Shown: positions 3,948 to 38,170 of the stretch, one piece after another
Position numbering within the stretch: the stretch's first letter is position 1
Layout of the letters: every line of letters starts with the position of its first letter
Program-made: the position numbers and the translations under genes
NCBI RefSeq assembly: GCF_011207455.1
Contig: NZ_CP048877.1
Coordinates: forward strand, 1,046,576 to 1,110,575
DNA length: 64,000 bases
Direction of reading: 5' to 3'
Source: Thermosulfuriphilus ammonigenes
Lineage (GTDB): Bacteria; Desulfobacterota; Thermodesulfobacteria; Thermodesulfobacteriales; ST65
Notes under the pieces: model-generated
Told to the model about the DNA's origin: nothing
Seen by the model: only the letters and a program-made list of their open reading frames with translations
Databases searched by the model: none

Positions 3948-6110
3948 TTGTTTGCTGAGATCCTTTTTCCGGCTACAGGCAAAAGCGAAAAGGTCTATCT
4001 AGAAGAGGAAACCTTGCCGGGGGTAAGGGTTCTTTCCCCCGGCAAGACCAGGCCTCGAATCGGTTTAGTTTTAAGGGAACTTCCTCCTGAATCTGATCTT
4101 TTTCCCCGAAAGACGGGGGTTTCTGTTCTTGACAAGGTGCCGGTTATCTCCCCTGACCTTCTTTCTTTTCTTCAGTGGGTCTCTTGGTATTATCAAAGCT
4201 CCCTGGCCCAGGTGATCCGGACCGCCCTTCCCCGGGAGCTTCTCCATCCTCCTCGGCCGAGGGTTTGTCTCAGTGCTGAGGGACGAGAGATCCTCCCAGT
4301 CAGTATCCCCCTGGTAGCCAGACTACGCCGGGCGGGCCGCCGTGGTCTGACCCTGGAAACAATCCAACGAAGCTATGGCCCGGGAGCCTTAAAGATGGTG
4401 CGGGAATGGCTTAAAAAGGGCCTGTTGAAAGAGGCCTGCCCCCTTAGTCAAAAAGGACGCCCCTTAAGTATCATCTCCCCGGAGATCCTGGATCAGACCC
4501 GGACCATCACTCCCACCACCGCTCAAAAAGCCGCCGCGGCCGTCATATCTCAATCTCTGAGTGGAGACTTCCACCCCTTTCTCCTTCATGGGGTTACCGG
4601 AAGCGGTAAGACATGGGTTTACATCAAAGCTGTCAGCGAGGTCTTAAAGCGGGGCAAAAGTGCCCTAATCCTGGTACCGGAGATAGCCCTCATTGGGGCC
4701 CTGGAGGGGGCCTTTGTGGCCGAATTTGGTCAGGAGGTGGCCCTGTTCCACAGTTTTCTCTCGGAAAGACAGCGGACGGAGACCTGGCTTAAGGCCTGTC
4801 GAGGAAAATGTCGTATCGTTATTGGAGCCCGATCGGCGATCTTTGTCCCCCTTAAGGACCTCGGACTAATTGTAGTCGATGAGGAGCATGACCCTTCGTA
4901 TAAACAAGAGGAGGGGCTTCGCTACCAAGCCCGAGATCTGGCCCTGGCCCGGGGCCAGATGGCGGGAGCCACGGTTATCCTGGGCTCGGCCACCCCGTCT
5001 ATTAAGAGTTATTATCTGGCCCGAAAGGGACGGTTGAGGCTTATCAGCCTACGGCAACGGGCCAGCGGACAGAGGCTGCCCCAGACCCGAATTGTCGATC
5101 TTACCCAGGTCGAAAGACCGGGCTACCTTCTCTCCAGACCCCTCCTTGAGGCCCTTAAAGAACGTCTCCGAGGGGGGGAACAGGCCATTGTTTTTGTCAA
5201 CCGGCGAGGATTTGCTACTCTGGTAGTTTGCCATCGTTGTGGCTATCAATTTCGCTGTCTCAATTGCTCCGTAGCCCTCACCTACCACAAGGAGGAAGGG
5301 GAACTTAGATGTCATTATTGCGGTCTGACCTTAAAGGCCCTGCCCCAGTGCCCGGCCTGCGGTCAGGGAAGGCTGGAGATCCTAGGTCTGGGAACCCAAC
5401 GGGTAGCCGAGGAGTTGGCCCGACTTCTGCCCGAGGCCCGGATAGGACGCCTGGACAGAGACGTGGCCAGGAGCCCTGGCCGCCTGAAGAAGGTCCTCGA
5501 TGATTTTCAGCAGGGAGAGCTGAACATTCTCGTCGGAACCCAGATGCTTAGCAAGGGGCACCACTTCCCCAGGGTGACCTTGGTAGGGGTCATCCTTGCT
5601 GATCTCTCCCTCAACTTTCCAGACTTCAGGGCCCCGGAGAGGACTTTCCAGCTTCTGGTTCAGGTGGCCGGCCGTTCTGGTCGGGAAAGATCCGGAGAGG
5701 TCATCGTTCAGACTTTCTCCCCGGGCCACTACAGCCTCCGACACGCCTTAAGACACGACTACGAGGGCTTTTACCAAACCGAGATTGGCCTGCGACAGGA
5801 ACTAAATTGGCCCCCCTTCAGTCGGCTGGCCAGCCTCCTCTGGGAGACTCCAGCCAAGGAGACGGGAGAGACCCTGGCCCGGGCCCTGGAAAGGCTTCCG
5901 GAGCTAGTCTCCCCGGCGCTTGAAGTCCTGGGCCCCGCTGAGGCCAGCCATCACCGCCTGAAGGGACGATGGCGCTGGCAGATAGTCTTTAAGGCCCCCA
6001 ACATCACCACTCTCCATCAGGGTCTAAAACAGGCCCAGGATCTTATTCGGGAAGCTTCTCCCCCGGGCCCCTTTCGGATAGTGGTGGATATTGACCCCGA
6101 GGAGACCTAA
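3948..6110 (+). CDS. priA: Primosomal protein N' (replication restart helicase PriA)
   Basis: 720-residue superfamily 2 helicase that reloads the replisome at stalled forks. Visible are Walker A (GVTGSGKTWVY), the DEEH box (VVDEEHDPS), GSATPS (motif III), the eight-Cys zinc module starting at CHRCGYQFRCLNC and ending CPACG, and the C-terminal helicase motifs GTQMLSKGHHFP and QVAGRSGR. The start is a TTG at 3948, only 3 bp after the galU stop; the N-terminal 3'-fork-binding domain is present but short on recognisable motifs. It is convergent with the methyltransferase gene and overlaps its end by 4 bp. Confidence 0.95.
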   Translation: MFAEILFPATGKSEKVYLEEETLPGVRVLSPGKTRPRIGLVLRELPPESDLFPRKTGVSVLDKVPVISPDLLSFLQWVSWYYQSSLAQVIRTALPRELLHPPRPRVCLSAEGREILPVSIPLVARLRRAGRRGLTLETIQRSYGPGALKMVREWLKKGLLKEACPLSQKGRPLSIISPEILDQTRTITPTTAQKAAAAVISQSLSGDFHPFLLHGVTGSGKTWVYIKAVSEVLKRGKSALILVPEIALIGALEGAFVAEFGQEVALFHSFLSERQRTETWLKACRGKCRIVIGARSAIFVPLKDLGLIVVDEEHDPSYKQEEGLRYQARDLALARGQMAGATVILGSATPSIKSYYLARKGRLRLISLRQRASGQRLPQTRIVDLTQVERPGYLLSRPLLEALKERLRGGEQAIVFVNRRGFATLVVCHRCGYQFRCLNCSVALTYHKEEGELRCHYCGLTLKALPQCPACGQGRLEILGLGTQRVAEELARLLPEARIGRLDRDVARSPGRLKKVLDDFQQGELNILVGTQMLSKGHHFPRVTLVGVILADLSLNFPDFRAPERTFQLLVQVAGRSGRERSGEVIVQTFSPGHYSLRHALRHDYEGFYQTEIGLRQELNWPPFSRLASLLWETPAKETGETLARALERLPELVSPALEVLGPAEASHHRLKGRWRWQIVFKAPNITTLHQGLKQAQDLIREASPPGPFRIVVDIDPEET

Positions 6111-16140: not shown

Positions 16141-16948
16141 GATAAGCCTTGGTATTGCCCAGCTTATCACGGCCAGTCTCCTTATCTCCGGGGGCTCGGG
16201 TATCCTGGTAGCCTATCACTTCTATCCAGACCACGCCTTTGTCTCCGTGGTCGGGCTGGATACGGTAATCCCCTTCGGGCGACTTATCCGGGGGGTGCAC
16301 TTTTGGTCAAGTCAGTTCTTTTTTCTTCTGCTTCTCTGGCATCTGTGGGAGTCTATCCGCAGCGGAGCCCATTTAAGACGCCGGCTCCTTTACTGGAGTG
16401 GGCTGGTCCTTCTCCTTCCGGCCGCCCTGATGGCCCTCTTTACCGGATATGTCCTCCGGGAGGATCAGACCGGCATGGCCGCCGGGGCCATCGCTGAGCA
16501 TCTGGCCCTTTCTGTGCCCCTGATCGGCGGGGTGGTAAACGCCCTCTTTTTTGATCTGGAACACTCCGGGCTAATAAGGGTCTATAGTGCCCATATCTTG
16601 ATCTTTTTCATCATTCTTTGGGGAAGTCTCTGGTACCACCTAAAGAGACGGAGATTGGAAAGCGAGGATCTTCTCCGGGCCCTTGTCCTCTCTCTGATCC
16701 CCGCCCTTATCTTAGCCGCCCCCCTGGAGATGACCTCCGGGGCCCTTCTCATTAAGGGCCCCTGGTTCTTTCTTGGAGTTCAAGAGCTTCTGCGCTATCT
16801 TCCTCCGCTGGTGGCCGGAGTTCTCTACCCGGCCGTGCCCATTGGGGCCCTTCTGGCCCTGCCCCGGGCGGAGAAACCGTCTCTTCTTACCCTCGGCCTG
16901 TGGCTGGTGAGCTATTTCATTCTCACCTTAGTGGGAGAGTTGAGGTGA
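16118..16948 (+). CDS. Cytochrome b (Rieske/cyt b complex, N-terminal b6-like)
   Basis: 276-residue membrane protein related to the N-terminal haem-binding part of cytochrome b/b6. Haem-ligand His pairs can be seen in the helices GRLIRGVHFWSSQFFFLLLLWH and VYSAHILIFF...WYHL, and the PFGR/GYVLREDQTG region resembles the Qo-side GYVLPWDQ of cytochrome b. About seven to eight hydrophobic helices. The ATG at 16118 overlaps the Rieske gene by 23 bp, so a slightly later start cannot be excluded. Predicted to oxidise quinol and pass electrons through the Rieske protein to the multihaem cytochrome. Confidence 0.88.
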   Translation: MWWRSRSKISLGIAQLITASLLISGGSGILVAYHFYPDHAFVSVVGLDTVIPFGRLIRGVHFWSSQFFFLLLLWHLWESIRSGAHLRRRLLYWSGLVLLLPAALMALFTGYVLREDQTGMAAGAIAEHLALSVPLIGGVVNALFFDLEHSGLIRVYSAHILIFFIILWGSLWYHLKRRRLESEDLLRALVLSLIPALILAAPLEMTSGALLIKGPWFFLGVQELLRYLPPLVAGVLYPAVPIGALLALPRAEKPSLLTLGLWLVSYFILTLVGELR

Positions 16949-18633
16949 AGACCTGGCTATCTCTGGCCCTTATAGTTTTAATCCTTTCGGCCACAGTCTA
17001 TGAGGTCCTGCGGCACCGGGCCGACAAAGTCCACCTTCTCCTCAGCGGCCAGGTAGATATGTGTCTTTCCTGTCACCAGGAAGAGCCGGATCAGGCCCAT
17101 CAGGCCGGAGTGGTGGGCTGTGCTGAGTGCCACCTGGGCAATCCCTTGGCTTCAGAAAAATGGCGGGCCCACCGAGGGATGGTCAAAAATCCCGGAGAGC
17201 TGGTTTGGGCGGAGAAGACCTGCGGTCGGCAGGGGTGTCATCCCAGCGATGTCCCCAACCTCAAAAAGGCCCTCATGGCCACCAATCGGGGCATCATTGC
17301 TACCCTTCGTTACTACTGGGGAGAGACCGACGACCCCCGGGAGAATCTCACCGTAGAAGACCTTCAACGGACCGGGAAGACCTCCCTGGCCCTTGATTAC
17401 TTCCGTAAGCTCTGCGGCTCCTGTCACCTTTGGGTAAAACGCGGTGAGCTCCCTTCGTTTCTGGCCGAAAAAGGCGGAGGCTGCACAGCCTGTCATAATC
17501 AGCCTCCCCCACGCTCTACCGGAAACAAAAGGGGCAAACCCCATCCCCAGATCACCAAAAAAGTTCCCCTTGAGGCCTGCGTCCGCTGTCATAATCGCAG
17601 TGGCCGCCTGGGCCTTACCTATCAGGGGATGATCGAATCTGAAGGCTACGGCGTCCCTTATGATGAAGGTCTTCCCCGTTCAGATCTTATCGATGGTCGT
17701 TCGGTAATTCGTATCCCCCCTGATGTCCACTTTAAGGCCGGGCTGGTCTGCATCGACTGCCATCTGCGGGAAGAAATCATGGGCGATGGTAAGTCTTATG
17801 CCCATTTTGAGGAGCAGGTAGAAATAACCTGCCAGATGTGCCATGGCGGAGATGGTCTAAGCCGCAAGGGACGCAAGGCCCCCAACTTTAAGAAGGGGCC
17901 AAACGGACAACCAGTTCTGGAGGGCAAACTGGATGGTCGGCTCCACCCACTGGCCCCTCCCAAGGAGATCTGTCAGGGGCGAGACCACCAAAGATTATCC
18001 TGTCAGGCCTGTCATAGCTGGTATGTCCCCCAGTGCTACGGCTGTCACGTACGCCAGGATGAGAGTCAATCCCAGCTAGACAAAGTAAACGCCAGAGAAA
18101 CCAAGGGGCTCTGGGAAGAGTTTCGTTCCTACATGCGTTATGAGAGGCCTGTCTTGGGGGTACAAGGTAACAAGATCGAGATCCTTGTCCCTGGCTGACA
18201 GGATTTTGTCTCCCTGCTGGATGAGCAGGGACGCCTGAAGAGGACTTTCAAACGCCTTACCTGGTCTTTCATGGATCCCCACTCTACCCAGAAGAAGGGA
18301 CGCAGTTGTCCCGACTGTCATCAGTCGCCCAAAACCGTAGGGCTTGGCCCGGGAAATGTCTTCTTTGAAAACGGCCGTTTGCTCTTTGCCCCAGCAGATA
18401 CCGGAGCCGATCTGGGACTTAACCATTCCCTTCAGGCCCTGGTGGATACCTCGGGACAGCCCCTTACCAACCTCTCCCGGCCCAACCTCCGACCTTTTAA
18501 TCAAGAGGAGATAAGGCGTATCCTTCGGGTGGGCCTCTGCCTTGTCTGTCATCCAGACTACAGCGATCCGGTTATGCAAAACTGGCGTCCAGACCTCACT
18601 TGTCCGGTATTTGACGAAAAAAATGGCCTCTGA
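16945..18633 (+). CDS. 12-haem cytochrome c with in-frame UGA (candidate selenocysteine or recoded Cys codon)
   Basis: Starts at a GTG overlapping the cytochrome b stop (GTGA), with an N-terminal signal anchor. Haem sites before the UGA: CLSCH, CAECH, CGRQGCH (CX4CH), CGSCH, CTACH, CVRCH, CIDCH, CQMCH, CQACH, CYGCH. The TGA at 18196-18198 is codon 418 in the context LVPG-UGA-QDF. The same frame then stays open for 435 bp to 18633 with two more haem sites (CPDCH, CLVCH), normal codon usage and no ribosome-binding site of its own. Read through, it gives about 562 residues. If UGA is a stop, the product is 417 residues and the remainder is a relic. A strong hairpin lies just after the UGA. Likely the electron acceptor of the Rieske/cytochrome b complex. 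Confidence 0.75.
18196..18231 (+). promoter_or_regulatory. UGA plus SECIS-like hairpin
   Basis: After the in-frame TGA (18196-18198) and 12 nt, TCCCTGCT (18211-18218) pairs perfectly with AGCAGGGA (18224-18231) around the loop GGATG. The loop begins 20 nt after the UGA and opens with G, matching the general bacterial SECIS layout (small G-starting loop roughly 16-37 nt downstream). No T-run follows, so it is not a terminator. Confidence 0.6.
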
Positions 18634-31432: not shown

Positions 31433-31450
31433 CTCCCCCCTCCCAAAGCA

Positions 31451-31489
31451 GGGGCAGGGTTTTCCCTCGGGAAAACCCTGCCCCTTTTT
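31451..31489 (+). terminator. Rho-independent terminator after iscU
   Basis: GGGGCAGGGTTTTCCC pairs with GGGAAAACCCTGCCCC (15-16 bp, no mismatch) and is followed by TTTTT. It ends the rrf2-tusA-iscS-iscU operon. Confidence 0.95.
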
Positions 31490-31507: not shown

Positions 31508-31672
31508 TCAGGAGCGCTTCTCAGAAGAGGTTTTGATATGGTTCTTTTTATCTTCTGGATCTTTCCCCTGGAAACAGCCGGTAAGCATCAGATCCGCAAG
31601 GGTGGAACAAGTCCCGCCATTTTCTTCAGCCCCAACCATCTCTAAAGTTATTTCCTTAAAATCTTTCTCCAT
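31508..31672 (-). CDS. Small Cys-containing peptide, possible RiPP precursor or carrier peptide
   Basis: 54 residues from the ATG at 31672, which follows AAGGAGG at 5 bp; a longer reading from 31714 would overlap the upstream gene. The N-terminal half is acidic (MEKDFKEITLEMVGAEENGG), then comes TCSTLADLMLTGC with two Cys, and a charged tail. The gly-gly between an acidic leader-like part and a Cys-rich segment resembles precursor peptides, but no known family is recognised. It is the last gene of an operon with a B12-binding radical SAM enzyme and a LuxE-like acyl-activating enzyme, either of which could act on it. This is inference. Confidence 0.6.
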   Translation of the reverse strand: MEKDFKEITLEMVGAEENGGTCSTLADLMLTGCFQGKDPEDKKNHIKTSSEKRS

Positions 31673-31682
31673 ATAAACCTCC

Positions 31683-32888
31683 TTAAACATTAATGCGAGC
31701 ATAGATTCGGCCAATCTTACTTAAGCGATGTCGTAATAAAAACTCCGTCAGTTTATTAGCTACTCGTCCGCCGGGATGCTGGAAAGTTTTATCGATAAAC
31801 ACCTCCTGCCCCCGTTTGCGCCAACGTCCAAGAATCTCAAATCCATCTTCGACAGCCATACCGACATTATCTGTTTGGACAGCCAACATTTGAGCCCTAT
31901 TGGTAAGGTCATAATGACACAGGAGTCCGATCTCTCCCGGCCGAACAGGATTTAATGTTTCGGGATCAATAATTTTAAGACGGGTCCATGGAGGAAGTTC
32001 CTTGTAGCGAAAGACCTTTCGTCCCTTAAGATGATTTCTTAAGACGTTGTCAAAATAATTAGTGCTGGTTTCCGCCATCCCCAAAACGTTAATACAGTAA
32101 GTCTCTGGGATCCCGAGAATTCTTTTGGCTTTGGCCCAAAATTCCTCCTTACTACACTCACCAAACTGACCTTGATATCCGCCACCATCACAGAGTCGAC
32201 TTCCGGGAGGAAGTTTAAAGTGTAAACCTTCTTTCTCGCAGGCGTTAAAAAAGTAGATAAAGGCCGAGGTGGCCCCGATGAGGGCCAAAGGTTCGCCAGT
32301 TTTCTCTGCTTGTTTGAGGGCCTTGAGGAGTAATGCCAGTTTTAGCCCCCGATAGCCTATAAGAAAGGCACTATCCGACGTTCCAAAGATGCGCCTCACT
32401 TCCCCTAAACCGACAGCCATCCCCATACCGGGAACTAGTTTAGGAGAAGGGGCAAAAAAGAGAATCTTCATTTTGTCTATATCGGGAAAGAGATACTCCC
32501 GGGTAAGAAGGGCATTGGCCTGAACCATAATTTCAACGGCCCGCTGATCTCGATAGACCTTGGCTCGATTAGTTGGATCTGTGGTCCCACTACTCATGTA
32601 GTGCTGAACCGCCACATCAGGTGGAAAGGTAGTTAAAACAAACTTCTTAAAGGCCAGAGAAGGGACGGCCGGAATATCTTCCCAAGAAGAAACTGTTTCT
32701 GGAGTCCGGCCTACTTTAAGGCAGAAGGTACGATAGGGTTCTATATTACGAAATTGGAGCTCAAATTCCTTAAGAGCCAAACGATTGAAAGTCTTCTCAT
32801 CATTATTATCTAGCCCCCGGGCCACGAAGGCCTGAATTTCTTGATCGAGCTCCCGAACAAAGCTGGAGTCAAGGCTATAGTCCCTCAC
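31683..32888 (-). CDS. LuxE-like acyl-protein synthetase
   Basis: 401 residues of the LuxE / acyl-protein synthetase family (adenylating enzymes). The phosphate-binding SSGTT motif (residues about 98-102), a GFGTSDSAF-like core, GMAETS, and a C-terminal QHPGG are visible. In luminous bacteria LuxE activates fatty acid as acyl-AMP and moves it to its own Cys before reduction; no luxC or luxD is here, so the acceptor is unknown. The ATG overlaps the radical SAM stop by 4 bp. Confidence 0.85.
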   Translation of the reverse strand: MRDYSLDSSFVRELDQEIQAFVARGLDNNDEKTFNRLALKEFELQFRNIEPYRTFCLKVGRTPETVSSWEDIPAVPSLAFKKFVLTTFPPDVAVQHYMSSGTTDPTNRAKVYRDQRAVEIMVQANALLTREYLFPDIDKMKILFFAPSPKLVPGMGMAVGLGEVRRIFGTSDSAFLIGYRGLKLALLLKALKQAEKTGEPLALIGATSAFIYFFNACEKEGLHFKLPPGSRLCDGGGYQGQFGECSKEEFWAKAKRILGIPETYCINVLGMAETSTNYFDNVLRNHLKGRKVFRYKELPPWTRLKIIDPETLNPVRPGEIGLLCHYDLTNRAQMLAVQTDNVGMAVEDGFEILGRWRKRGQEVFIDKTFQHPGGRVANKLTEFLLRHRLSKIGRIYARINV

Positions 32889-34324
32889 GAAGCGTTCCCC
32901 TTCAGGAATCTCTTAAAAGGAACAAGGAGGCTCATCATCTCTGAGGCCAAATAAGACCTCTCCAGTAAAAGCTGGAGTACGGTGAGCATAAAGCCCCTCT
33001 TGTAGGGAGTAAGGGTCTCTAGACGGGCAAACTTATGAGCAAAAAAGCGGCCGGTAGCCGAAAACATTGCCCGCCGAAGTTCTGCCCGACTCATGGCTAG
33101 CGGCCTGATGATGGGTTCAATGAGATTGTAGTGGCTATAATTGTAGTCTTCGATGTAGTCTCTAAAACGTTGATAAAGAGGAGTATAGGGCCAAGGGGTC
33201 AGGGGCAAAAAAAACGCCATATCTGGATCATAAAATTTGGCCAGTTCCAAAGTCTGGTTGAGAGAGTCTTTTGTTTCATCTGGAGTGCCCACAACAAAAG
33301 ATGTCTCTGAAACAATGTCTGCCCTATTAATGATATCTAAGGCCTTCTTGGAGGCCTCAACTCGGATATCTTTCTGAAAAAGGTCTATTTTCTGCTGATC
33401 CGGTGATTCCACTCCCACATAGATATGGGTTATTCCGGCCAGGCGATATTTCTCCATAATGTCTTCATCTCGGATAATATCATCGACCCGAGTCTCCATG
33501 AGGATCTCTATTTCTAGATCCCGCTGGAGAAGAAGATCCAGAATCCTTTGCCAGCGCTGGCGATCCCGAGTTGGATATTCATCACTGATCATGACCACAT
33601 CCACCCCATAGACACGACGAAGATACGCCAGCTCGTCCACAAAAGCTTCGGGAGATCTGGCCCGCCATGATCCCCGCCAAAAAAGACGCTGGGAGCAAAA
33701 AAGGCATCCGGCCACACAGCCTCGGGAAGAAGAGACGATAGCCAATCTGGAGCCTGGCTGAGGATGATAGGTATAGACAGACCAATCAAGCAGATCCCAG
33801 GCTGGCTTGAGCCGGTCAAGATCGACGACAAAGGGTCTTTCTGGAGTAAGGAAAGGGCCCCCGTCTTTGAGAAAGGCCAGCCCAGCCACCTTTTGGGGGT
33901 TATCTTCAGCAGCCAGACATTCAACAAGTTCGGAAAAGGTTTCCTCCCCCTCACCCCGAACAATAAAATCCACCACCCCAGAGGCCAAAACCTCTTCATA
34001 CATAAAGGTGGGATGGACATTACCCAAGACGGTGATCACCTGAGGATCAATTTCTTTCGCCAGATGACAAAGCTTCAGGGAGTCGTTTACCGTAGCCGTA
34101 ATAGCCCCCGAGGCCAGAATATGAGGCTTGAAATCCTCAATAAGGCAAGCGATCTCCTCCCAACCATGATAAAGAGACATGGCATCATAAATTATAACTT
34201 CGTGTCCGGCTTCGCGGACTGCCCCGGCCAGATAGACCAACCCCAAAGGCAGCCAGGTACCAGCGGCCTCCAGCATGCCACAGTGATACGGTGGAGTTAC
34301 CAAAAGAATACGTTTTTTACCCAT
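32885..34324 (-). CDS. B12-binding radical SAM enzyme (BchE/P-methylase type)
   Basis: 479 residues. An N-terminal cobalamin-binding Rossmann domain (residues 1-140; ILLVTPPY start and GNVHPTF) without the DxHxxG motif, then a radical SAM core with SRGCVAGCLFCSQ (Cys at about 202, 206, 209), and a C-terminal helical part ending in FKRFL. Such enzymes methylate unactivated carbons or cyclise rings. The substrate is unknown; neighbours are cytochrome maturation genes, a LuxE-like enzyme and a small peptide. Confidence 0.9.
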   Translation of the reverse strand: MGKKRILLVTPPYHCGMLEAAGTWLPLGLVYLAGAVREAGHEVIIYDAMSLYHGWEEIACLIEDFKPHILASGAITATVNDSLKLCHLAKEIDPQVITVLGNVHPTFMYEEVLASGVVDFIVRGEGEETFSELVECLAAEDNPQKVAGLAFLKDGGPFLTPERPFVVDLDRLKPAWDLLDWSVYTYHPQPGSRLAIVSSSRGCVAGCLFCSQRLFWRGSWRARSPEAFVDELAYLRRVYGVDVVMISDEYPTRDRQRWQRILDLLLQRDLEIEILMETRVDDIIRDEDIMEKYRLAGITHIYVGVESPDQQKIDLFQKDIRVEASKKALDIINRADIVSETSFVVGTPDETKDSLNQTLELAKFYDPDMAFFLPLTPWPYTPLYQRFRDYIEDYNYSHYNLIEPIIRPLAMSRAELRRAMFSATGRFFAHKFARLETLTPYKRGFMLTVLQLLLERSYLASEMMSLLVPFKRFLKGNAS

Positions 34325-34329
34325 AAAAA

Positions 34330-34641
34330 TTACTCCCCAAAGGCTATGACATAGCCCCAGAGACTCCCCGCCAAAAATACAAAAGCCAAAAGCAGGTGTT
34401 TAAGCCAAAGAAGTTTGGTCTTAAAGGCCAAGGATTTCTGGCCACGATAGTCCCGAAGTCTTAAAATCCCGGTAATGGCCACCAATACCAAGGAAAATAT
34501 GATTACCAAAAACATCAGACGCTTAGTATCTGCGATGCTCCTTTTAGTGGACAGTAAAAAAAGGTTTATTAAAGCCCCGGCCCACAAACCAGTAGCCAGA
34601 TCATGAAGAAAGTTGTTGATGATTTGCAAGGGCCGGTTCAT
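34330..34641 (-). CDS. Small integral membrane protein
   Basis: 103 residues with three hydrophobic helices (about 15-30, 43-60, 83-100) and the pattern HDLATGLWAGAL, which recalls CopD-like or related haem-type membrane proteins. The ATG at 34641 overlaps the ccsA stop (TGATG). Not assignable to a family with confidence. It sits between ccsA and the radical SAM gene, so it is likely part of the same membrane pathway. Confidence 0.7.
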   Translation of the reverse strand: MNRPLQIINNFLHDLATGLWAGALINLFLLSTKRSIADTKRLMFLVIIFSLVLVAITGILRLRDYRGQKSLAFKTKLLWLKHLLLAFVFLAGSLWGYVIAFGE

Positions 34642-35456
34642 CAACTACTTCCCCCGATCACATACATAGTGTGAAGACCTTGGCTAATAAAAGGAACTAC
34701 GAAGAGAGCCAGAATAAAGAAGGAAAAACAAATTACTGTCAACCAGGCCGCCCGTCGGCCCCGCCAACCGAAAAATCTCTGTAGATGAAGATCAAGTCCC
34801 AATCCTAGCCAGACAATAAGCGACCAAGTTTCAATAGGATCCCAAGACCAATAGCGTCCCCAGCGAAGGTTGGCCCACACAGCTCCTGAGGCGGTGGCTA
34901 TTGTCCAGAAGACAAAGGCCAGCCCCATAAAACGGTAATTGTATAGTTCAAGGGAGTTTGAATCCAGCTGAGTTGAGGAACGCCGAAGGAGCCAGAGGCT
35001 GCAACCTAAAGCCACCAAAATAGCGGCAATGGAGAGTTTGATAAAGAGAACATGAATCACCAACCAAAAATAGTGAAAGGCTGTAGGTAAGCCTGGCTGA
35101 CCATCGTATTTGCTGAGCCCCAGAAGGAGAAAAAATAGGGCCCCGGGAAGTACCACCAAACCGACAGGCAGAAGACGCCCCATCCTAAGGGTAACTAACC
35201 CGTAGATAGCCAAAATCACCCAGGCATTAGAGGAGTAAACCTCATAGGCTGTAGTGTAAGGCCCGTGACCCACATAGTACCAGCGAAGTGCCAGGGCCAA
35301 ACCGTGTAAAGCTATCCCCCAAAAGACCAGAAACCGTGAGGCCGAAAGGCCTCTTTCCTTCGTGAAGAAAACTCCCCAGGCCAGGGCAATAATGGCCAAG
35401 GCATAAGAAGCTACGGCCAGCCAGCTCAGAATTATTTCAAAAGTGACTTCTCTCAT
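34641..35456 (-). CDS. ccsA: Cytochrome c assembly protein CcsA (system II)
   Basis: 271 residues from the ATG at 35456, which overlaps the resB stop (ATGA). The tryptophan-rich signature WGRYWSWDPIETWS lies in the C-terminal half, with conserved His in HYFWLVIHVL and GLHTMY. About seven to eight membrane helices. With ResB it transports haem and joins it to CxxCH motifs at the outer face of the membrane. Confidence 0.93.
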   Translation of the reverse strand: MREVTFEIILSWLAVASYALAIIALAWGVFFTKERGLSASRFLVFWGIALHGLALALRWYYVGHGPYTTAYEVYSSNAWVILAIYGLVTLRMGRLLPVGLVVLPGALFFLLLGLSKYDGQPGLPTAFHYFWLVIHVLFIKLSIAAILVALGCSLWLLRRSSTQLDSNSLELYNYRFMGLAFVFWTIATASGAVWANLRWGRYWSWDPIETWSLIVWLGLGLDLHLQRFFGWRGRRAAWLTVICFSFFILALFVVPFISQGLHTMYVIGGSS

Positions 35457-36724
35457 CTTCCATTCTGGTTGGCTAAAACCTTCCGGAACTCGGAGATGAG
35501 AAAATCTTCCTCTTGGGGGAAGAAGCGTCCCGGGTAGGGAGACCACAGGAAGACCCACAGGGCCTGGTTAGCATCTAAAACTAGAAAGATACGCCTAGGC
35601 GGCAGAAAATAGACTAAAATCGCCCCCAGCACAGCCGCTAAAAGCCCAGCGAAAAAGACTCCCTCCCCCTGATGAGAAGTGACCACCAAACCCGTCCAGT
35701 AGGCCAAACGACCAAAGGTTAAGCGTTCATCTCCAAGAGAGATGGTCTGGCTAAAGAACAGCCTTCCCTCAAAAAGCAGCTCTCCAGCCCTTTGTACCTG
35801 AATATAGATTCCAGGCCAGGCAGGATCTAAGGCCTGTTGATCAAATAAGTTGGGGTAGAATTTAATGTTTAGAGAATAATCTCTGCCAGGAAAGTCTCCG
35901 CCGCCGACAAATCCCTCCCCAGGGCGGGAGGGTGGATCAAGAAAATAATGAGCTGATATAAACTCCCCTTTCTGGTCTCGAAGATAAAGAGTGGTTACAA
36001 AACCAAAGTCAGGGGCTTGGTAAAGACGGAAGCCCTGATATCGCAAAGGCCCCCGTAAACTTGTTTCCATCTCTTTCCTAAGCTTTCCCAAAAGCCGAAG
36101 CCGGCTATTGATGTCAAAGAGTTCCCCATCTTGGTAACGAACATTACAGGAAAGGAGGGCCAGGCCAAAATTTGGTTCAAATCTGGAGATCAGAAGGCCG
36201 GTCTCTTTGACCAGCCAATGACGGTCTTTAATTCGCTCAAGGCGTTCTCCCTCCATTATCTGAAGATAGCCTCTCGCCCCCCACATTCCTCGATAGATGA
36301 ATGAAAGGACAACCAAAAATAATCCCAAGTGGAAGACAAAGGTTCCCCAGCGTCCGATACGGTGCCGTTCAAAAAGGAGCCATTCCTGGCCTTCAGCAGT
36401 AAAGACATACCCCAGAGACTCGAGTTTATTCCTTAAGGGAACCAGGGAGCCGTTAAATGAAGGCTCCAGGAGAACTTTCTTTCCTAAAGGATGTGGAGGC
36501 CTCCTTTCACGAGACCATAGACGCTTGAGAGCCAAGGCCAGAGAGACCAAACTGAGCGAGGCTACAAGTAAGAGAAAAAGACCATTTAGACGTCGTATAA
36601 GATGTAAAGAATCATCTGACCTCTCTTGGGGGATAAGGGCTTGAAAGAGAGAAGCCAAAAGAAGGGCTAAGATAAGCCAACTTATAAACCCCCTTTTAAG
36701 GAAAAACTTACTTAGCCTAAGCAT
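35453..36724 (-). CDS. resB: Cytochrome c biogenesis protein ResB (Ccs1)
   Basis: 423 residues. Three N-terminal hydrophobic helices (RGFISWLILALLLASLFQALIP; FLLLVASLSLVSLALAL; GTFVFHLGLFLVVLSFIYRG) with the haem-coordinating FHLG His, a long exported domain, and a last helix around 360. This is the ResB architecture. It immediately follows the multihaem cytochrome it may serve. Confidence 0.9.
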   Translation of the reverse strand: MLRLSKFFLKRGFISWLILALLLASLFQALIPQERSDDSLHLIRRLNGLFLLLVASLSLVSLALALKRLWSRERRPPHPLGKKVLLEPSFNGSLVPLRNKLESLGYVFTAEGQEWLLFERHRIGRWGTFVFHLGLFLVVLSFIYRGMWGARGYLQIMEGERLERIKDRHWLVKETGLLISRFEPNFGLALLSCNVRYQDGELFDINSRLRLLGKLRKEMETSLRGPLRYQGFRLYQAPDFGFVTTLYLRDQKGEFISAHYFLDPPSRPGEGFVGGGDFPGRDYSLNIKFYPNLFDQQALDPAWPGIYIQVQRAGELLFEGRLFFSQTISLGDERLTFGRLAYWTGLVVTSHQGEGVFFAGLLAAVLGAILVYFLPPRRIFLVLDANQALWVFLWSPYPGRFFPQEEDFLISEFRKVLANQNGR

Positions 36725-36733
36725 AGGGCGGGT

Positions 36734-38170
36734 TCAGGGATCATAGGGCCCCTGGTAGTTCTTATGGTAGCGACAAGGATTGATAGTGCTGTAGCAGTTT
36801 CTCTTATTGTAAGAATCGGGATCAGAGGCCTTCCGATAGCCCTCAAGGACCGCCATCTTGGTGCCATCGCTCTGAAGGGCAGCATAGGGTTCCGGATCAC
36901 TATTGTAGGCAATAAGCCGCCCCCTCTTGGAGCCATGAGGCACGGCTACATGGCAGGCCACACAGGGGGCACCGGGATAAGAAACCGTTCCAAAGGTGTA
37001 ATTTTCATTATAATGGTCATCCTTGTCGTGAACATTGTTTAAAAAACGGCCATTTACCTTAAGTGGATGACACTTGGCACAAAGAAGTTTGGTCTGCCAA
37101 TTGCCCTGGTCGTTAAAAACATCGGCCAAAGTCCAGAACTTGCCTGTGTCTGGCCTTATGGGCCAGGTATAACCATCAGCCAGCATGTACTTAGTGTTTG
37201 AGGCATGAGGCCCTTCGGGGCCTGTAGAGGCATCATCTCCATGACAGTCGCTACACCACATGGTCTGATCTCCTACGGCCTGCGTCCAGGGCGACTTGAC
37301 CCGAGCCCCTCTACTAGAAGCCACTAAAGCCCTAGGAGAATCCGAACCGCTGCGATTGTTTAGAGTGACTACCACTGGATGACCAGATTTGTTGGCCGGA
37401 GCAAACTCAAGAGCCTGATCAGTCAGATAGTATTCGCTGGTGGCGTTTGTGATGGTGGTCACTCCAGTGGAGGTGTTCTCTGCCGAACCAAAGGCATAGT
37501 AAGAATGACACTTCAGACAGACCTGATACTCCTTGATCGCCCCTCCAGCAGGATTAGCAGTGGTTGGACGGAGCTCATTAAAGCTTGTCGGAACCGTCCA
37601 GGCTGATGAGGGCCAGATGGGTTCTACTCCCCAGACTCCTTTTAACAAGTTGGAGACCAGATTGTTATTTGCCGGATTGGTAGTGTTGTATTGGTGATAG
37701 GCTGTCCCTGGATAGCCAATAGTATGAGGATTGTGGCAATCAGCACACTCTGCATGACGATTGCTGGCCCCGAAGGAGGAAGCCCCCTCCAATTTGCTCA
37801 CTGTATGCCGCCCGCTGCGTTCCACCGGATGCCGATAAGATTTGTTAAACTGGGTCTCAATATCCCTTGAAAGGGAAGGCACGTTGTTACTAACCGCCCC
37901 ATGACAATAAAAACAGAGTTTCTCCTCCAAGGCGAAAAGGGCTAGGGGGGAAGGACCGGCTCCTACAGGAGAGGGTTCTGTACCACCAATGCTGGCATGC
38001 ATCTCATGGCAATGGGCACAATTACCCACCGAATAGCCTAGGGTCTGAATAGAATCACGATTTACCCCACTACTACTGTTGCCGTGGGCTGAGCCGGTAT
38101 AAGTGCCAGCCCAGAGAGAAAAAGGAAGGGCTAAGAACAGTAAGAAAAAGAAAATCATAAAAGATGCCAC
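36734..38170 (-). CDS. Seven-haem exported cytochrome c
   Basis: 478 residues with an N-terminal signal peptide (LLFLALPFSLWA). Haem sites: CAHCH, CFYCH, CADCH, CLKCH, CSDCH, CAKCH and CVACH; many extra His could serve as distal ligands. The C-terminal part lacks further CxxCH but has a Cys pair (NCYSTINPC) that is not haem-type. It heads the seven-gene operon and probably moves electrons across the periplasm or cell surface. It is not a recognised named cytochrome. Confidence 0.88.
   Translation of the reverse strand: MASFMIFFFLLFLALPFSLWAGTYTGSAHGNSSSGVNRDSIQTLGYSVGNCAHCHEMHASIGGTEPSPVGAGPSPLALFALEEKLCFYCHGAVSNNVPSLSRDIETQFNKSYRHPVERSGRHTVSKLEGASSFGASNRHAECADCHNPHTIGYPGTAYHQYNTTNPANNNLVSNLLKGVWGVEPIWPSSAWTVPTSFNELRPTTANPAGGAIKEYQVCLKCHSYYAFGSAENTSTGVTTITNATSEYYLTDQALEFAPANKSGHPVVVTLNNRSGSDSPRALVASSRGARVKSPWTQAVGDQTMWCSDCHGDDASTGPEGPHASNTKYMLADGYTWPIRPDTGKFWTLADVFNDQGNWQTKLLCAKCHPLKVNGRFLNNVHDKDDHYNENYTFGTVSYPGAPCVACHVAVPHGSKRGRLIAYNSDPEPYAALQSDGTKMAVLEGYRKASDPDSYNKRNCYSTINPCRYHKNYQGPYDP

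Follow-up and report, generated by a model that had tools for sequence, protein, structure and literature searches.

A BchE-like cobalamin radical SAM enzyme encoded beside haem-attachment genes and a multihaem cytochrome in Thermosulfuriphilus ammonigenes

The bacteriochlorophyll cyclase BchE (TIGR02026, anaerobic Mg-protoporphyrin IX monomethyl ester cyclase) is a cobalamin radical S-adenosylmethionine (SAM) enzyme that catalyses a six-electron oxidation with ring closure, not a methylation, and intermediates of the reaction have been observed in vitro (PMC13142503). The propionate of its substrate is protected beforehand as a methyl ester (PMC13142503, PMC5972617). A relative of this enzyme is encoded in a seven-gene, minus-strand operon running from 38170 to 31508 of a 64,000-nucleotide stretch of the Thermosulfuriphilus ammonigenes genome (NZ_CP048877.1, positions 1,046,576 to 1,110,575; hereafter the window), the genome being a single contig of 2,287,345 bases. 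The gene order is cytochrome, ResB, CcsA, CopD-like protein, radical SAM enzyme, LuxE-like enzyme, and peptide (Table 1).

Cytochromes of the c type are usually regarded as having one haem, bound in ways already described. Special haem sites can have dedicated system II enzymes, such as CcsA1 for the CX15CH site of MccA-type sulfite reductase. The operon likewise has an extra CcsA/ResB copy beside one multihaem cytochrome; it differs, however, in its cytochrome, where no CX15CH, CXXCK, or similar site was found—a dedicated site of the CX15CH type was rejected because only CXXCH sites are present—and in the addition of the BchE-like enzyme and LuxE. The acyl-protein synthetase LuxE (PF04443, PDB 7xc6 chain E) shares its adenylating fold, by sequence, with the operon enzyme, and its Cys arm motif is found in the system, but here the arm is a separate gene and LuxC and LuxD are absent. 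Lipoyl synthase, a radical SAM enzyme whose substrate octanoyl-H protein likewise has its acyl group tethered to a protein, provides an analogy only, with homology limited to the radical SAM core. Each component family is known, whereas no account of their combination or of the split arm was found in the literature searched.

The BchE-like enzyme and its gene neighbourhood

Members of the radical SAM family were found by scanning genome contigs with an alignment of the enzyme; a scan of genome contigs with the single LuxE sequence gave no matches. The family occurs in Geobacter, Geomonas, Geotalea, Nitrospirota, Candidatus Methanoperedens, and other anaerobic methanotrophic (ANME)-2 archaea, as well as in Actinomycetota, Elusimicrobiota, Planctomycetota, and Acidobacteriota, with several members known as contigs of metagenome-assembled genomes (MAGs) only. 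Of the named relatives that the scans recovered, Thermodesulfobacteriaceae/Thermosulfurimonas MAGs are the nearest. Of 94 loci, many of them on short contigs, 65 have CcsA near the radical SAM gene, 57 have ResB, 54 have multihaem cytochromes, 51 have the CopD-like protein, and 29 have LuxE. When the count is confined to the 45 loci flanked on both sides by 7 kb or more, CcsA lies within 7 kb in 33, ResB in 28, and a cytochrome with at least five CXXCH motifs in 30; one or other of these three is present in 41 of the 45, and LuxE in 14. Because CcsA-family genes number three to seven per genome in twelve Desulfobacterota genomes of 1.5–4.5 Mb, one would be expected within 7–10 kb of a random gene in about 3% of cases, a few per cent. 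The main finding is thus that the radical SAM enzyme keeps company with large cytochromes and a haem-attachment machinery of its own, and this association is found both in bacteria and in Methanoperedens/ANME archaea.

A preliminary description of the operon, made from the sequence alone, had linked the radical SAM enzyme to a dedicated cytochrome and a dedicated system II, and 41 of the 45 well-flanked loci bear this out. The nearness of the radical SAM–LuxE pair to such genes, on which that description depended, recurs in nearly every well-flanked locus that has both. The set it had delimited is nonetheless too wide: the radical SAM enzyme with CcsA, ResB, and cytochrome forms the core, whereas LuxE and the peptide are optional, LuxE lying within the cassette wherever it occurs. 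It had also spoken generically of a cobalamin radical SAM enzyme that methylates or cyclises; the superfamily holds, but the enzyme is specifically BchE-like.

This likeness is visible at several levels. The operon enzyme has an N-terminal B12-binding domain (97 bits) and a Radical_SAM domain (72 bits) with the CxxxCxxC motif, and its best NCBIfam match is BchE at 387 bits, with HpnR next at 143; a true BchE from Thiodictyon scores 816 bits. Authentic BchEs, encoded on plasmids of phototrophs, share the cobalamin radical SAM architecture and align with it at about 37% identity over about 95% of its length. The hosts of the family, in contrast, are not known as phototrophs, and its neighbours are CcsA/ResB and cytochromes rather than bch or puh genes. 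In a tree of 65 proteins the family forms a group of 32 rows (support 97); five BchEs group with it, as does a small cyanobacterial/Sphingobium BchE-like clade (96). A second, slower tree, from which some long branches were left out, still places the family and BchE on one side of a branch, with modest support of 66/92, the monophyly of the family being supported at 60/80. Comparison of residues in 96 family members and the five BchEs gives a clearer picture than the trees: about 28 positions are conserved in the family and in all five BchEs and are rare in other cobalamin radical SAM enzymes. These signature residues of the B12 and SAM domains include Y13, G16, E19, A21, G22, M49, W181, H300, E340, W378, N400, P408, and K431, of which Y13, E19, A21, M49, W181, E340, W378, and K431 are absent even from the BchE-like clade. 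The AlphaFold model of the enzyme has a predicted local distance difference test score (pLDDT) of 69.5 overall and is weak in its C-terminal third; its structural matches confirm the cobalamin radical SAM fold and nothing beyond.

The system II genes of the operon lie next to each other, and both ResB (65 bits) and CcsA (97 bits) score above the Pfam cut-offs. CcsA, one of four PF01578 genes in the genome, is a divergent copy that falls under the cut-off of the CcsB equivalog TIGR03144 (141 versus 187.6 bits). In the CopD-like protein, H14, D15, G59, R62, and K82 are invariant and H83 nearly so among 39 relatives, and its AlphaFold model has a pLDDT of 92.7; from this conservation, the invariant His, Asp, Arg, and Lys of its helices could serve in haem handling.

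LuxE and a separate acyl-acceptor peptide

The LuxE-like enzyme scores above the PF04443 gathering threshold (63.1 versus 24.9 bits) and far under the cut-off of the long-chain fatty acid LuxE equivalog NF052244 (62.7 versus 550 bits); its sole PDB match is LuxE 7xc6 chain E. The LuxE of Photobacterium phosphoreum has its acyl-acceptor residue, Cys364, at the C terminus, according to a passage of PMC8301110 that cites Soly and Meighen 1991. Ordinary LuxE proteins outside the cassette, in all 17 cases with a complete C terminus, end in [RK]GC[SAG] plus a short tail, the motif occupying the place of this Cys364. The operon enzyme has no Cys after residue 324 of 401, and a Cys motif, GTCSTLADLML, is encoded by the gene next to it. 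In close relatives, too, LuxE ends without a Cys and a comparable peptide is encoded directly 3′ of it, with the motifs GGGCSTVADRML (L032), GRGCSTVADFLI (L092 and L093), CCRVFADPFI (L033), CSCSVRIAQLL (L123), and MCSCAALVADII (L119).

In two sister groups of the cytochrome-linked LuxE the motif is fused to the C terminus of the enzyme itself, as SCPQVVDEIL in chains of about 500 residues and as CPCGE.I.DMI (for example CPCGEIIDDMI) in chains of about 420 residues. All cytochrome-linked LuxE proteins form one clade (support 99) beside the LuxC-linked type. When profiles are compared, the Cys of the peptide falls on that of the LuxE arm (P 1.4e-4 and 0.007). A regular expression for the motif matches 10 of 17,584 short open reading frames (ORFs) in all loci, each a copy of the operon-type peptide; as it was written after the peptides had been seen, this count speaks to specificity and is not an independent discovery. 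From these comparisons, the peptide is probably the LuxE arm turned into a separate gene in the lineage of the window, which would be a simple and new way of organising an acyl-activating enzyme, with its carrier peptide encoded apart. A detached acyl-acceptor arm accounts for the peptide better than a substrate peptide or a lipidated tag would.

A possible haem modification and its alternatives

The operon is tentatively proposed, at a little under even confidence, to make a modified tetrapyrrole—most likely an altered haem—and to install it in a single multihaem cytochrome dedicated to it. LuxE would adenylate a carboxylate in the cytoplasm, a propionate of a porphyrin or haem being a plausible candidate, and transfer it to the Cys of the peptide, where the resulting thioester on this detached arm would stand in for the protecting methyl ester of BchE. 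The BchE-like enzyme would then oxidise or cyclise a side chain. The product may be bound or handed on by the CopD-like protein, and the operon's own ResB/CcsA pair would export it and attach it to the secreted cytochrome. CcsBA is both a haem exporter and an attachment enzyme that moves haem outward (PMC10663686, PMC6299221), and a cytoplasmic haem-modifying enzyme would therefore need a matching exporter/lyase. No export signal was seen in the radical SAM enzyme, LuxE, or the peptide, whereas the cytochrome is secreted; modification of a haem or porphyrin before export is the arrangement that takes in every part. The preliminary description had left the choice between a modified cofactor, a lipid, and a peptide on the cytochrome; the cofactor suits the locus because the radical SAM enzyme is BchE-like.

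Several points weigh against this proposal. LuxE is missing from most loci, and the core reaction therefore cannot depend on carboxylate activation: protection is provided by a different step, or the reaction proceeds without it. No CcsA-family gene lies within 10 kb of the radical SAM gene in three genomes with deeper-branching members (G063, G287, and G303), and a fold search of the CopD-like model against the PDB gave no confident match. The operon enzyme falls short of the curated cut-off for BchE (481 bits), and is thus not filed as BchE; the alternative grouping of BchE with the cyanobacterial BchE-like clade is not rejected (approximately unbiased test, p-AU 0.23), and the sister relation of the family to BchE is only moderately supported. 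BchE-type chemistry on the proposed substrate is an extrapolation from 37% identity. The gene set and its conservation, the likeness to BchE, and the transfer of the LuxE arm motif to a gene of its own are what the sequences show; the substrate, the sequence of steps, and the haem modification are inferred from them. The motif of the peptide is short and defined post hoc, and the profile comparison yields no more than the P values above.

The cytochrome itself bears on a different possibility. Besides seven CXXCH sites it has an unusual C-terminal tail with two further Cys residues (CX6C), and among the cytochromes of the genome recovered via PF09699 it alone carries such a tail. At least two Cys past the last CXXCH are found in 31 of 38 cytochromes immediately upstream of ResB/CcsA, whereas the figure for the remaining cytochromes of the loci is 22 of 61, where they mostly belong to CX4CH haem motifs. 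Cobalamin radical SAM enzymes that modify peptides are known from families of ribosomally synthesised and post-translationally modified peptides (RiPPs). The radical SAM enzyme, with LuxE and the peptide, might accordingly modify the apocytochrome before secretion, for example at the Cys pair of NCYSTINPC, with CcsBA then adding ordinary haem. This is considered unlikely: the closest known enzyme has a porphyrin substrate, the tail is highly variable in sequence and spacing and is lacking from the archaeal cluster cytochromes, and the dedicated haem lyase would be left unexplained.

That the three last genes build a carrier-bound acyl product of their own—a lipid, quinone, or shuttle merely co-regulated with the cytochrome—is likewise improbable. 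A related LuxE (about 44% identity) does occur with LuxC, a cobalamin radical SAM enzyme, an HMGL-like enzyme, and an aconitase in another cluster, and in the crystal structures of the relatives TokK and CysS the substrates are tethered to pantetheine; the operon, however, has no LuxC or other acyl-using enzyme, and the radical SAM enzyme is linked to CcsA/ResB even where LuxE is absent. A RiPP cluster, with the small peptide as the precursor on which the radical SAM enzyme and LuxE act, is very unlikely. Although the peptide lies immediately beside both in seven loci, it tracks one type of LuxE rather than the radical SAM enzyme, most of whose loci lack it, and the operon encodes neither protease nor exporter. 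In place of a leader and a variable core travelling with a maturase there is a conserved Cys motif, and the RiPP reading was set aside once this had been matched to the LuxE arm.

If the proposed haem modification holds beyond this operon, which is put forward with still greater reserve, a widespread bacterial and ANME pathway would exist in which a BchE-like enzyme makes a side-chain-altered haem, possibly with an extra ring, and a dedicated CcsBA couples it to large cytochromes that conduct electrons. On that view BchE and a haem-modifying enzyme of anaerobic respiration would be closely related, which bears on where the bacteriochlorophyll ring cyclase came from. A BchE-like enzyme tied to haem-attachment genes in many organisms capable of extracellular electron transfer would add a cofactor or modification step, and could explain why such cytochromes need a CcsBA of their own. 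A literature search, with many subscription journals outside its reach, found no description of a set combining a BchE-like radical SAM enzyme with a multihaem cytochrome, and the titles and abstracts of work on BchE, Geobacter, and cytochromes held none on this topic.

Operon layout and related loci

The genes are separated by gaps of 5–10 bp or else overlap by 4 bp throughout, and the coordinates agree with the preliminary description in this and in strand; its family calls for ResB/CcsA, the cobalamin radical SAM enzyme, and the LuxE-like enzyme are supported by Pfam. The same seven-gene order is kept in a genome of another family code (G129), and the set is thus not a chance array. Apart from the cytochrome, identities to G129 are 69% for the radical SAM enzyme, 76% for LuxE, and 63% over 30 residues for the peptide. 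The region upstream of the operon is intergenic and AT-rich, and the terminator-like hairpin downstream is graded strong. For CcsA, the ATG at 35456, which overlaps ResB in an ATGA, is preferred, a GTG ORF from 35558 being unlikely. No Rfam elements were found in the operon region.

Table 1. Features of the operon and its downstream boundary (window coordinates).
Feature	Position	Strand	Evidence
Secreted multihaem c-type cytochrome	36734..38170	-	7 CXXCH; signal peptide; C-terminal NCYSTINPC tail; G129 orthologue 71% identical, tail NCYSTVKAC
ResB/Ccs1, system II cytochrome c maturation	35453..36724	-	PF05140, 65.3 bits
CcsA, haem export/attachment	34641..35456	-	PF01578, 96.6 bits; WWD-type motif WGRYWSWDPIETWSLI and conserved periplasmic His retained
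Small CopD-like membrane protein	34330..34641	-	Weak CopD/DUF2214 matches; conservation over 39 relatives
BchE-like cobalamin radical SAM enzyme	32885..34324	-	CxxxCxxC at 203-210; TIGR02026 (BchE), 387 bits; tree and signature residues
LuxE-like acyl-adenylating enzyme without C-terminal acyl-acceptor Cys	31683..32888	-	PF04443, 63.1 bits; last Cys C324 of 401
54-residue peptide with GTCSTLADLML, proposed split-off LuxE acyl-acceptor arm	31508..31672	-	ATG at 31672 preceded by AGGAGG Shine-Dalgarno
Terminator-like hairpin	31450..31485	.	16 pairs, 10 G-C; between operon and convergent IscU-type gene downstream

Related loci vary in content. Methanoperedens and other ANME archaea (L148, L152, L162, L163, L165, and L167) have the radical SAM enzyme alongside ResB/CcsA of bacterial type, which suggests that the cassette has passed from one domain to the other. 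Two BchE-like paralogues lie about 4 kb apart in G063 and G287 (L085 and L086); these are suggested to be deeper family branches with another role or with distant partners. Geobacter and Nitrospirota cassettes (L107 6484-7851, L112, L119, L137, and others) have a second cobalamin radical SAM enzyme, TIGR04013-like and about 445 residues long, between CcsA and LuxE. A small membrane protein with the motif W.VT.R.F.PYHL..IIPG occurs in the cassettes of L119 (5384-5650), L033 (13518-13766), L035 (10945-11205), and L124; the L119 copy had no match in Pfam or NCBIfam. Adjoining the BchE-like gene of L035 is a 47-residue ORF (5508-5651, minus strand) ending in MKKRTYIKPRVVGSANVHPC, which could be a precursor peptide or chance. 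An AhbD-like radical SAM gene near L123 was considered as a link to haem and dropped: it is about 10 kb distant, and the other members scanned from that neighbouring cluster form a mixed SPASM set that matches MoaA best.

Cluster cytochromes of Geobacter carry CX4CH/CXXCH domains (TIGR01904, six copies in L078) and, as in L078 13830-17354, have up to 32 CXXCH and many CX4CH motifs with dedicated CcsA/ResB adjacent; the cassette may serve CX4CH haem sites in these clusters. The window itself has a second multihaem cytochrome at 16900-18198 on the plus strand, with nine CXXCH and one CX4CH. Finally, Desulfobacterota loci (L034 3384-12848, and similarly L036–L039) combine a cobalamin radical SAM enzyme, an HMGL-like protein, an aconitase, a flavin adenine dinucleotide-dependent oxidoreductase, a LuxE with a GCSL tail, LuxC, and a U32 peptidase, in what looks like an undescribed acid-reduction pathway.
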